Notes under the pieces: generated by a model
What the model was told of the DNA's origin: nothing
The model's input: only the letters and a program-made list of their open reading frames with translations
Databases searched by the model: none
Virus record (IMG/VR): IMGVR_UViG_3300030098_005634
Location: 1 to 38,633 of that record
Source: a virus
Reading direction: 5' to 3' (one strand)
DNA length: 38,633 nt
Position numbers and translations under genes: made by a program
In this document: positions 25,247 through 31,978 of the stretch, one piece after another
Numbering within the stretch: position 1 is the stretch's first letter
How the letters are laid out: every line of letters starts with the position of its first letter

Positions 25247-25485
25247 AACGAAGCAAGGTTAGGCCGTCGTAATGCATCTACAAAATCGATTAAACAGCAC
25301 AATACATTGATTTGATTGATCGATTAGCAAGGTGCGTTTGCCATTGAAGTTCAGGGAAATAAGTCGGTTTCACTAAGAACAAATCTGTCAGAAAAAATCC
25401 ACAAGAAACTTTCACGGTTTGTTGCCGACCGGCGCCTGTAACACAAATCGACACAATTTGTTAAGATGGCAGAAACGAAGACGAG
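25247..25485 (+). promoter_or_regulatory. Regulatory region before the second lysis gene, with operator copy 2
   Basis: TCTGTCAGA at 25384-25392 inside AAATCTGTCAGAAAAAAT is copy 2 of the dispersed element, in the same orientation to the rightward genes as in other copies, but about 95 bp before the gene. The stretch also holds TTGATTTGATTGATCGATTA (about 25308-25327) and an A/T-rich approach to the gene at 25486. Likely a promoter. Confidence 0.45.
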
Positions 25486-26160: not shown

Positions 26161-26877
26161 ATGGCCCTCGGACTTTACAACGGCATCGCTGGCACTGGCG
26201 ATCCCCACTCGCAGCCGTTGCTGTCGCAGCTCAATATCACGCCTAGAATTGCAGCGTCCATGACGCGAAAGCTGGTGAGCAGCTACTCTGGTGACTTCTA
26301 CGCCACATCCGGCTCGGACGTAACAATTGTCTACGATCAGTCGGGCAACGGAACTAACCTGACCAACGACAGTACCACAAACGCTACCCTGTCCGGCTCA
26401 GGTGACTCAGCGCGAGCTGTGTTCGCATCGACTGGCTACACGGGGCTCACGACAAGCACTCAGGGCAGCGCGTTTGACGCAGGCACCTACGACATATTCA
26501 TTGTTTTTGACCCGATTTCAACAAACAGGCAGATGCTCTTTTCGCGTGGGAGCACAGGGAATGACCGCATTGCCTTGGAAAGCGGAAAATCCAGCGATGT
26601 GTTTTCTGGCGTTACAAGGGGAGATGTCCGGGTCAACGACAGTGTTCTTTCCCCTCAAACGCGCGGGGCACTTTATACCGCTGCCCTTGCAAGCGGCGTC
26701 AACGTAATTAGTGTTGAGGACCTGGACCTCAACACAATGGACAGCGTCGTGATGCTCGGAGTCAGGAACACGGTCTGGAGGGCAGAAGGATCGTTTGCGG
26801 AATTCATTGTCACGCCCTCGTTGAGCGATGCCCAGCACAGTGCCATCGTTGCCGATATTCGGGCTTTCTACGCCTGA
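26161..26877 (+). CDS. Lectin-like protein (AbfB/concanavalin-like), 238 aa
   Basis: The N-terminal part contains AASMTRKLVSSYSGDFYATS and VTIVYDQSGNGTNLTND, a pattern resembling the arabinofuranosidase B-type beta-sandwich found in some phage proteins. Further strands are GTYDIFIVFDPISTNRQM and the C-terminal segment ending SDAQHSAIVADIRAFYA. No catalytic residues can be assigned. It lies 15 bp after the endolysin, in the lysis cassette rather than the tail cluster. Possible roles are cell-wall or glycan binding, or a late-made fibre tip. The stop overlaps the convergent gene end at 26868. Confidence 0.55.
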   Translation: MALGLYNGIAGTGDPHSQPLLSQLNITPRIAASMTRKLVSSYSGDFYATSGSDVTIVYDQSGNGTNLTNDSTTNATLSGSGDSARAVFASTGYTGLTTSTQGSAFDAGTYDIFIVFDPISTNRQMLFSRGSTGNDRIALESGKSSDVFSGVTRGDVRVNDSVLSPQTRGALYTAALASGVNVISVEDLDLNTMDSVVMLGVRNTVWRAEGSFAEFIVTPSLSDAQHSAIVADIRAFYA

Positions 26878-27065
26878 CGCTTCCGGGCCTTGGCCTTGAC
26901 CTTGGGCGTCACCTTTACGGCGCCGTCTGCGATTGCGTAAATTAGCGCCCGCCAGGATGGCTTCCCGGCTGCAGGCCCGCGCTGTGCGTGACACTTCAAG
27001 CGGGCCGCCAACTTGTCCAGCTCCTCCCTCCTTTCGGAAGTCAGCTCTAAGCTCTCCCTCTTCAT
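26868..27065 (-). CDS. Small putative RHH DNA-binding protein, 65 aa
   Basis: The start taken is ATG 27063-27065 (MKRESLELTSERREELDKLA); an upstream GTG would lie within the palindrome 27076-27092. A strand (SLELTSE), then a helix (REELDKLAARLKCHA), then GKPSWRALIYAIADGAV match a ribbon-helix-helix regulator, and the Lys/Arg tail suits DNA contact. Last gene of the ard operon. The nearby palindrome may be its own operator. Confidence 0.5.
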   Translation of the reverse strand: MKRESLELTSERREELDKLAARLKCHAQRGPAAGKPSWRALIYAIADGAVKVTPKVKAKARKRQA

Positions 27066-27075
27066 CGAGGTGATA

Positions 27076-27092
27076 GTGCCAAATCTTGGCAC
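27076..27092. promoter_or_regulatory. Palindrome GTGCCAA-N3-TTGGCAC
   Basis: A perfect 7-bp inverted repeat around ATC, 11 bp before the ATG at 27065 of the putative RHH gene. Suits a dimeric repressor, perhaps for autoregulation; a small mRNA hairpin controlling translation is also possible. Confidence 0.55.
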
Positions 27093-27115
27093 CGGGTCAA
27101 TCAGTTGCGCTAGGG

Positions 27116-27445
27116 CTAGAATCTCGACTCAGCCTGGGCAAGATCGGCAAAGGAGGCCGGGGTTGCATCCGGAGTGACGGAGTATTCTTCCGTGTCGTCT
27201 ACGTAGATCACATCGTCGTTGTCATACCACCGATCCTTCCCGTCCACGGTGACTCGGGAGTAGCGGTCGATTACGCTCTGGCTTTCAAAGGTCAGCGCAA
27301 AGTCTAGCGCATCTTCTTCGCTCTCAAATTCATACCACTCGTTAAACGGAGATGATCCGCTGGTGACAGAGTGGTAGAAGTGGTCATCGTTTTCTTTGAA
27401 CCAGGCTGGCTGGCTTTCCTGCTGCTTGTAGTTAAGTAGGCTCAT
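27116..27445 (-). CDS. Acidic unknown protein, 109 aa
   Basis: Rich in Asp, Glu, Tyr and Phe (FNEWYEFESEEDALDFALTF, then RYSRVTVDGKDRWYDNDDVI). The start region is an A-rich leader (AAAAAAAGAAACCA before ATG) without a G-rich Shine-Dalgarno. The strongly acidic profile, in an operon with ArdA, would suit a DNA-mimic accessory, but this is conjecture; no family recognised. Confidence 0.5.
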   Translation of the reverse strand: MSLLNYKQQESQPAWFKENDDHFYHSVTSGSSPFNEWYEFESEEDALDFALTFESQSVIDRYSRVTVDGKDRWYDNDDVIYVDDTEEYSVTPDATPASFADLAQAESRF

Positions 27446-27464: not shown

Positions 27465-27647
27465 TTAGAAAAGGATTTCGTTGGCGTCGAGATAATCCAG
27501 ATTCCGGGGTGACGGCTTCACTCCCGGCCACCGGATGTCGTAGACGCGCTCTCCTGGATCCCGGCTCACCAGCCAGGTAACGTAGGCCACAAGCTGGCAG
27601 GGCCTAAGATCGGGGATGAACAGCGTGATGTCTTGGGGTTCACTCAT
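27465..27647 (-). CDS. Small unknown protein, 60 aa
   Basis: ATG 27645-27647 lies 1 bp after the ArdA stop. MSEPQDITLFIPDLRPCQLV followed by WLVSRDPGERVYDIRWPGVK. The start is supported by tight coupling to ArdA. Function unknown. Confidence 0.5.
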   Translation of the reverse strand: MSEPQDITLFIPDLRPCQLVAYVTWLVSRDPGERVYDIRWPGVKPSPRNLDYLDANEILF

Positions 27648-27648
27648 C

Positions 27649-28158
27649 TTAATGATTGGAAAAGATCCAGCATTCTCCTTTGTGGTGAACCGCCGTAAAC
27701 TTATGGCGCAAATAGCCATTCCAGGTCGCTTGCCAATCGATCACAAGGTAGCAGGGAACCTCAACGTCGGCAGCGTGCTGCTCTGCGAAATCTGACTCGC
27801 TATCGTAACGCCCATAAAACCGCTCTTGCGCTTTTTCCAAGGAGGCGTCCCCATCTACGTTGTCCCTATACAGGGCAACAAGCTCTTGCTCGTCTTCGTC
27901 CAAGTCGAGCCACTCCCACAAGTCGTCCGCGTCGGCAAAGCCGCTTTCGTGAATAAACCCGCTTGGGATGTTCTCCCAGTCCTGGAACATAAACTCTGGG
28001 TCGTGTTCTCCCTTGTGGAGCTTGCGGCATGCCGCATAAAACTCCGAGGCATCTGAATAATCGGCCAGATCCAGCCAGGCTCCTGCAATGGAGCCACCAG
28101 CATATTTGCCGTAAGTGCCGACATATACGCGGGGGGAAGAGGTGATAGCAATGCTCAT
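27649..28158 (-). CDS. ardA: ArdA-like anti-restriction protein, 169 aa
   Basis: The N-terminus PRVYVGTYGKYAGGSIAGAW, the segment LHKGEHDPEFMFQDWENIPS and the acidic WEWLDLDEDEQELVALYRDN are hallmarks of ArdA, a dimeric DNA mimic that blocks Type I restriction-modification enzymes. Length about 170 residues is usual. Start ATG 28156-28158 is preceded by an (ACC)5 leader in place of a G-rich ribosome site. It protects incoming DNA and sits in an early operon with a palindrome-rich promoter. Confidence 0.9.
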   Translation of the reverse strand: MSIAITSSPRVYVGTYGKYAGGSIAGAWLDLADYSDASEFYAACRKLHKGEHDPEFMFQDWENIPSGFIHESGFADADDLWEWLDLDEDEQELVALYRDNVDGDASLEKAQERFYGRYDSESDFAEQHAADVEVPCYLVIDWQATWNGYLRHKFTAVHHKGECWIFSNH

Positions 28159-28183
28159 GGTGGTGGTGGTGGTTGGGTGTGCT

Positions 28184-28208: not shown

Positions 28209-28442
28209 TTAGCTCCACTGCGCGTCGCCTTTTAATAGCAAAGCGTTTCCGACGATAGGTCGTCCTGCAATCCGAGAGGCGGTTGGATTGAGAGGCAGGC
28301 TCATAAGCAGTCCCTCTTCATTCACGAGCAGCTGCCCGCGCTCGACGGGTATTACTTCTACAAAGCCTCCAACCGCCTCCTGAGCTTCCTCAAGAGACGG
28401 CCTGCTGGTTGTCATGGTGGTGGTGGTGTTTGTGTTGGACAT
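28209..28442 (-). CDS. DUF3846-like small protein, 77 aa
   Basis: AVGGFVEVIPVERGQLLVNE, then EGLLMSLPLNPTASRIAGRP and IVGNALLL match the small DUF3846-type proteins of phage and plasmid early operons. The start is at 28442 (MSNTNTTTT) or at the internal ATG 28413-28415, which has an (ACC)4 leader very like that of ardA. Function unknown; its usual companions are anti-restriction and regulatory genes. Confidence 0.65.
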   Translation of the reverse strand: MSNTNTTTTMTTSRPSLEEAQEAVGGFVEVIPVERGQLLVNEEGLLMSLPLNPTASRIAGRPIVGNALLLKGDAQWS

Positions 28443-28468: not shown

Positions 28469-28738
28469 TTATTTGTTCTCAAATAGAATAACCATTTCAC
28501 CGCATCCCGCGAAAAGCTCATCGACGTATGCGACCTTCTTTTGAACGAGAGAGGAGATTACCCCTCGGATTTTATTCGTTGGTATCTCTGTGTTATCACT
28601 AATGCTCTCGGCGCAGTCGGCGTGACAATCGTCCAGTTCCCCCCAATCCTTTATGGAGTTGTAAACATTGAGTTCCATTTCCGTCAGGGAGACAGGCTTG
28701 CCGTATACGTTTTTTACTTGGTCTTGGTTGTTGGACAT
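28469..28738 (-). CDS. Winged-helix-like regulator, 89 aa
   Basis: First gene of the ard operon. LTEMELNVYNSIKDWGELDD, then TEIPTNKIRGVISSLVQKKV and a C-terminal strand (GEMVILFENK) read as a helix-turn-helix with wing. ATG 28736-28738 follows AAAAAAGATC; the same CAAAAGATCATG leader precedes the next gene. Candidate repressor of its own operon through the twin palindromes at 28791-28835. Confidence 0.55.
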   Translation of the reverse strand: MSNNQDQVKNVYGKPVSLTEMELNVYNSIKDWGELDDCHADCAESISDNTEIPTNKIRGVISSLVQKKVAYVDELFAGCGEMVILFENK

Positions 28739-28790
28739 GATCTTTTTTGGTTGGTGCCGGTCTTCCGGGTTCTCCCTGCCGACAAAAGAA

Positions 28791-28857
28791 AACTAGCTAG
28801 TTATCTCCCCTTCCACAAGGAATAACTAGCTAGTTCCGCTCTTTTTTTCTGACAGAT
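28791..28857 (-). promoter_or_regulatory. ard operon control region: twin AACTAGCTAGTT plus operator copy 3
   Basis: Two identical 12-bp palindromes AACTAGCTAGTT (28791-28802 and 28824-28835) have centres 33 bp apart, about three helical turns, so dimers could bind on one face. Next to them TCTGACAGA (28848-28856) is copy 3 of the dispersed element. The genes downstream read leftward from 28738. Confidence 0.7.
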
Positions 28858-28900
28858 TTAAAAGCCCTGTTTTTGTAGGGCTAAAGCACGCTGCGCTATG

Positions 28901-31726: not shown

Positions 31727-31978
31727 ATGGCCACTGACGACGAAAACCCTAAAAGAGGTCGCCCGCCAATTGACCCCAGTGATCAACTGCGAGTCGCTAT
31801 TAGGCTCGACGTTGAAGACAGCACTGCTGACGCCGTTGAGGCCGAGATGGCTGCCTCCGGTCTCGCTCGCAGCAAGGTCATTCGCCAGCTCGTCAGAGAG
31901 GCTCTGAGGGCGCGAGGTTATGACCTGCCCGAGAGCCACGACGAGAAGCGCGACAGGGAGAAGGAAGAGGAGGCCTAG
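31727..31978 (+). CDS. Ribbon-helix-helix regulator, 83 aa
   Basis: MATDDENPKRGRPPIDPSDQ is a flexible basic N-terminus. LRVAIRLDVEDSTADAVEAE is the DNA-binding strand and first helix, SGLARSKVIRQLVREALRAR the second helix with the SKVIR pattern of the CopG/Arc fold. The tail is charged. It is divergent from the recombination operon and upstream of attP and integrase, so it could control the lysogeny or recombination switch. Confidence 0.7.
   Translation: MATDDENPKRGRPPIDPSDQLRVAIRLDVEDSTADAVEAEMAASGLARSKVIRQLVREALRARGYDLPESHDEKRDREKEEEA

Follow-up and report, generated by a model that had tools for sequence, protein, structure and literature searches.

Paired palindromes ahead of an ArdA-containing phage operon and a 65-residue protein as their candidate autoregulator

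Gene organization around the paired sites

The window, which is the whole 38,633-nucleotide stretch of viral DNA analysed here, harbors two minus-strand gene blocks with a pair of short palindromes between them. The upstream block encodes RecT, an exonuclease (DUF2800/PD-(D/E)XK), and a 156-aa protein. It ends in a terminator-like hairpin (28863-28882, minus strand; AGCCCT-N8-AGGGCT, then TTTT) that is supported by sequence, predicted fold, and a three-phage alignment. An HTH_17/excisionase-like gene (L014 1819-2010, minus strand) lies between the 156-aa gene and the palindromes in the related phage G005 and is missing in the window.

The downstream block is an ArdA-containing operon of six minus-strand genes. 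The first gene (28469-28738) encodes an 89-aa protein with weak winged-helix-like matches and no homologue in related phages. The second (28209-28442) encodes a DUF3846 protein (Pfam PF12957, E 6e-10), and the third (27649-28158) encodes the antirestriction protein ArdA (Pfam PF07275, E 1.2e-18), for which no counterpart was found in the sister phages G005 and G019. The fourth (27465-27647), with a product of about 60 aa and a start set by comparison, is 95% identical in G005 and G007. The fifth (27116-27445; 109 aa) is 96% identical in G007 and was not found in G005. The last gene (26868-27065) encodes a 65-aa protein (MKRESLELTSERREEL...PSWRALIYAIADGAVKV...), which is proposed below as the autoregulator.

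Two additional elements accompany these genes. A hairpin-forming sequence, GTGCCAAGATTTGGCAC, sits just before the 65-aa gene (27066-27100) and is kept with small changes in G005 and G007. Leaders of the type CCACCACCACC directly precede the ATG of several early genes (28158-28175 and 28415-28432; also in L007, the G005 contig), with no evident Shine-Dalgarno sequence.

The paired palindromes

The 12-bp palindrome AACTAGCTAGTT occurs at 28824-28835, the upstream site with respect to minus-strand transcription, and again at 28791-28802, the downstream site. The two copies are 33 bp apart from start to start and leave a gap of 21 bp. No further match was detected elsewhere in the window with up to two mismatches allowed, and the positions and spacing given in the preliminary description are exact. 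A scan for any two near-identical 12-bp near-palindromes 20-60 bp apart returned this pair as its only result. Such pairs occurred at a rate of 0.09 per genome in order-1 Markov controls, and a perfect pair was seen in 0 of 200 controls. The pair is far beyond chance.

The preliminary description placed the sites at the ard promoter. The operon downstream does contain ArdA, but as the product of its third gene. Around the sites of the window itself, no promoter of sigma-70 type could be recognised. A literature search found no paper describing the palindrome as an operator; the sole match to AACTAGCTAGTT was a Sulfolobus polymerase paper.

Conservation in related phages

When 2.9 million viral contigs were scanned for the pair, one of those recovered was G005 (L007), a phage colinear with the window at approximately 78% identity over the longest aligned blocks. 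Both palindromes and their flanks are kept in G005, and the intergenic block that holds them (28752-28874, minus strand) is 89% identical; the first three downstream genes of the window are not shared. Positions 28751-28802, which cover the downstream site and extend into the leader (AACTAGCTAGTTTTCTTTTGTCGGCAGGGAGAACCCGGAAGACCGGCACCA, minus strand), are identical in G005 despite a different gene following the leader. This leader is missing in G019.

G019 (L044) is a more distant relative, with an exonuclease 52% identical to that of the window. At the same locus it carries AAGTAGCTCCTT in place of the upstream palindrome and AAGTAGCTACTT in place of the downstream one, again 33 bp apart. Both differ from the window's sites by a symmetric change (C to G and G to C), and each is still palindromic, one of them with a single mismatch. 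An unbiased pair scan returned exactly one pair per genome in the window, G005, and G019, at the same locus and with a spacing of 33 bp each time. Because the G019 sites changed symmetrically yet remained palindromic, a constraint on dyad symmetry is indicated. Conserved symmetry and spacing combined with altered sequence form the expected signature of an operator pair for a dimeric protein. The earlier reading of the element as two operator sites serving a dimeric regulator is thus supported by comparative sequence evidence, namely the dyad symmetry and the 33-bp spacing retained in relatives.

The same comparison bears on a reading at the RNA level. Together the sites make up an inverted repeat with 14-bp arms at 28791-28804 and at 28822-28835 (28791-28835 overall, minus strand), predicted to fold as RNA into a hairpin of -29.4 kcal/mol (z -5.4). 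Together with TTTTCTTTTG after the stem on the minus strand and the conserved flanks, this stability would suit an RNA element in which the sites pair into a terminator or attenuator stem at the operon start, bordered by A-rich and T-rich sequence. We regard this explanation as very unlikely. A pure RNA stem needs no palindromic arms, the innermost stem pairs are partly lost in G005, and the G019 arms carry a one-base mismatch. The stem has G-C in 4 of its 12 outer pairs and a long loop; a terminator pattern scan covering loops of 3-8 made no call, and Rfam gave no match. The inverted repeat probably arises simply because the two palindromes are identical.

Scanning 84,980 genomes of bacteria and archaea for the exact pair gave zero matches, no prophage relative was found via the terminase, and a nucleotide search showed no isolated phage carrying the element. 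Most of the terminase relatives (L019-L031) are short contigs that lack the sites. Several other candidates were set aside: L003, a match in the pair scan, contains a TAGCTA-rich repeat without the 65-aa protein family; L016 and L017 represent a chance match within coding sequence; and gene order differs in L008.

Unrelated phages with the same protein family

Through the DNA pattern alone, the contig scan also recovered L004-L006, whose proteins have no detectable similarity to those of the window apart from the 65-aa family. These contigs carry AACTAGCTAGTT twice, 26 bp apart, and a homologue of the 65-aa protein (MERRSIELTPEQW...SSWRTLIKRIANGEI) is the second gene after the paired sites. 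In L005 and L006, the sites flank the -10 element of a TTGACA-17-TATACT promoter. In L004-L006, the promoter of a divergent ParB-like gene has another palindrome, CTAGCCAGGTGGCTAG (L004 690-715, L005 10170-10195).

Two more distant homologues, L067 and L068, were retrieved by searching with the 65-aa protein. L068 has one palindrome, ACCTAGCTAGGT, which is the only perfect 12-bp palindrome in a 12-kb locus. This site falls within the 17-bp spacer between the two elements of TTGAAA-17-TTTAAT; the operon that follows has two genes, the homologue being the last. L067, which is related to L004-L006 by its terminase, has an imperfect site, AGATAGCTACCC, just upstream of the homologue start and between possible -35 and -10 elements. 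In these unrelated phages, homologues of the 65-aa family are located downstream of TAGCTA-core palindromes, and the sites lie in or beside sigma-70-type promoters (11/12 and 10/12 matches). A single site within a -35/-10 spacer (L068) and sites flanking a -10 (L005 and L006) also argue against the RNA element. The argument that the sites lie 33 bp apart and in phase, made in the preliminary description, does not generalize, as relatives of the regulator occur with a 26-bp spacing or a single site.

Which gene product accompanies the sites

The 65-aa protein (MKRESLELTSERREELDKLAARLKCHAQRGPAAGKPSWRALIYAIADGAVKV...) is the only product of the operon conserved across the window, G005, and G019. 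Identity of its homologues amounts to 86% in G005, 71% in G019, 49% in L067, 43% in L068, and 41% in L004-L006. Nine window proteins were tested, and this one alone had homologues in all site-bearing phages; likewise, when the window's open reading frames were compared with L004-L006, L067, and L068, no other gave any match. Codon differences between the window and G005 are mostly synonymous (15 versus 7). The gene is the last of the operon in the window, where it follows ArdA, and in G019. The end sequence of the G005 contig equals its start, so this genome is probably circular and the 65-aa gene would be the last of the operon there as well. Searches of phages and plasmids returned no convincing relatives of the family, and neither Pfam, PHROGs, nor NCBIfam contained a convincing model or a helix-turn-helix family match.

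In the preliminary description, the 89-aa winged-helix protein was thought to bind both palindromes and autoregulate the operon. Its gene is indeed the first after the sites, and a role in DNA binding would fit its weak matches of winged-helix type, to TrmB (E 0.04) and to three PHROGs of unassigned function (best 6e-6). Yet G005 and G019 keep the sites while protein and profile searches detected no 89-aa homologue in either, and none was found in L004-L006, L067, or L068. We consider this assignment highly improbable. Autoregulation by an operon-encoded protein appears sound on comparative grounds, and the 89-aa protein appears to be the wrong member of the operon.

A different conserved regulator, either the 83-aa RHH_1 protein encoded at 31727-31978 (plus strand) or a host protein, is an unlikely ligand of the pair. 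In favor of the 83-aa protein are its presence in the window, G005, and G019 and an RHH_1 match with E 0.002 for the window copy and 2e-5 for the G005 copy. However, L004-L006, L067, and L068 have TAGCTA sites and lack this protein. The window and G005 have identical operators, yet the strand residues of their 83-aa proteins are not the same, and in the window the 83-aa gene adjoins a different palindrome, TTTTCTGACAGAAAA. Judged by this co-occurrence, the 65-aa protein, and not the 89-aa protein, is most likely the regulator of the sites.

The 83-aa gene is divergent from the RecT operon, and the perfect TTTTCTGACAGAAAA lies in the divergent region. Scattered over mostly intergenic places in the window is a second palindrome, an odd one, TTTTCTGNCAGAAAA (22050, 31563, and 33513; weaker at 25381, 28845, and 32276). 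It also occurs in G005 (4648, 6604, and 33256), at several places common to both genomes, and in G007 and G009. TTTTCTGNCAGAAAA is a candidate operator of another regulator, and the 83-aa protein is a candidate for binding the TTTTCTGACAGAAAA motif.

Fold and putative recognition residue of the 65-aa family

In the family alignment, the N-terminus M-K/E-R-E/R-S-L/I-x-L is nearly fixed, and its variable residue 7 follows the half-site. This residue is Glu where half-sites read AACTAG or ACCTAG (window, G005, L004-L006, and L068) and Lys where they read AAGTAG (G019). L067 also has Lys at this position, and one of its half-sites has G at position 3. Drawn from few lineages, the pattern fits an N-terminal strand that would read the major groove, with Glu7 facing C and Lys7 facing G at half-site position 3.

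A structure model built from nine sequences (pLDDT 77) shows an extended N-terminus and helices at residues 10-22 and 38-47. VIA-align matched it to one structure only, the antitoxin VapB12, with Z 2.3 across 34 residues. Foldseek returned no significant match for this model and none for an earlier, poorer one; the protein has no Pfam RHH match, and a profile comparison of the family with the conserved 83-aa ribbon-helix-helix protein gave nothing. From the model shape and the VapB12 similarity, a ribbon-helix-helix fold is likely.

Ribbon-helix-helix repressors, such as Arc, MetJ, CopG, and the VapB antitoxins, are small proteins with an N-terminal strand followed by two helices, and they bind short palindromic operators and autoregulate. 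The 65-aa protein resembles them in size, in an N-terminal strand-like alternating segment before two helices, and in its short palindromic sites. Unlike them, it lacks a Pfam RHH match and has a 15-residue loop between the helices, and the PSWRxLI signature of its family is not in the libraries searched.

Proposed regulatory mechanism and known systems

We consider it probable that the double operator is bound by the 65-aa protein, which would exert Aca-like autorepression on an accessory or anti-defence operon. Each palindrome would be bound by a dimer. Early in infection, the operon, including the genes for the 89-aa protein, DUF3846, ArdA, and others, would be expressed; the accumulating 65-aa protein would then occupy both sites, cover the promoter region, and shut the operon down. 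We infer binding, dimerisation, cooperativity, and early expression, as well as repression rather than activation, the direction being taken by analogy with Aca proteins on anti-CRISPR operons.

A dedicated repressor linked to anti-restriction (ard) genes is known from plasmids, namely ArdK. It is described as a plasmid-encoded helix-turn-helix regulator (PMC9723621). Compared by description, both systems pair a dedicated repressor, here a putative one, with anti-restriction genes. They differ in that ArdK is plasmid-encoded and of the helix-turn-helix type, whereas the 65-aa protein matches no such family.

The genes for Aca proteins follow the anti-CRISPR genes, and Aca proteins repress their own operon through inverted repeats, one or two in number, within its promoter; Aca1-10 have been described as helix-turn-helix proteins (PMC9410906). 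In archaeal viruses, Aca-like regulators have been proposed to control other anti-defence genes, and HTH or RHH domains occur among the predicted anti-defence genes (PMC11065993). The present system shares with Aca a small putative DNA-binding protein encoded after anti-defence genes in the same operon, with inverted repeats upstream. Their location in the core promoter is clear in L005, L006, and L068, whereas the promoter of the window is not recognisable. Unlike Aca proteins, the 65-aa protein matches no helix-turn-helix model and looks ribbon-helix-helix-like. Moreover, the known anti-defence gene here encodes ArdA rather than an Acr protein, and the sister phages have other cargo.

Implications

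Comparison alone has linked an orphan operator to its probable cognate regulator, and the regulator belongs to a family that is unnamed in Pfam, PHROGs, and NCBIfam. If the proposal is true, Aca-style autorepression would extend to an anti-restriction operon, with a DNA-binding fold that is probably different. The natural operator/protein pair of Glu7/AACTAG versus Lys7/AAGTAG offers a specificity-switch test.

More tentatively, the proteins may represent a new family of small phage autoregulators (MKRESL[E/K]L...PSWRxLI..IA.G) with AAsTAG half-sites and a one-residue code (Glu7/C, Lys7/G), marking accessory or anti-defence operons with exchangeable cargo. Since the cargo between sites and regulator differs among phages, the pair may be useful in the search for new anti-defence genes. 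If this is true, the regulator and its paired sites would serve as bait for such genes in uncultivated phages.
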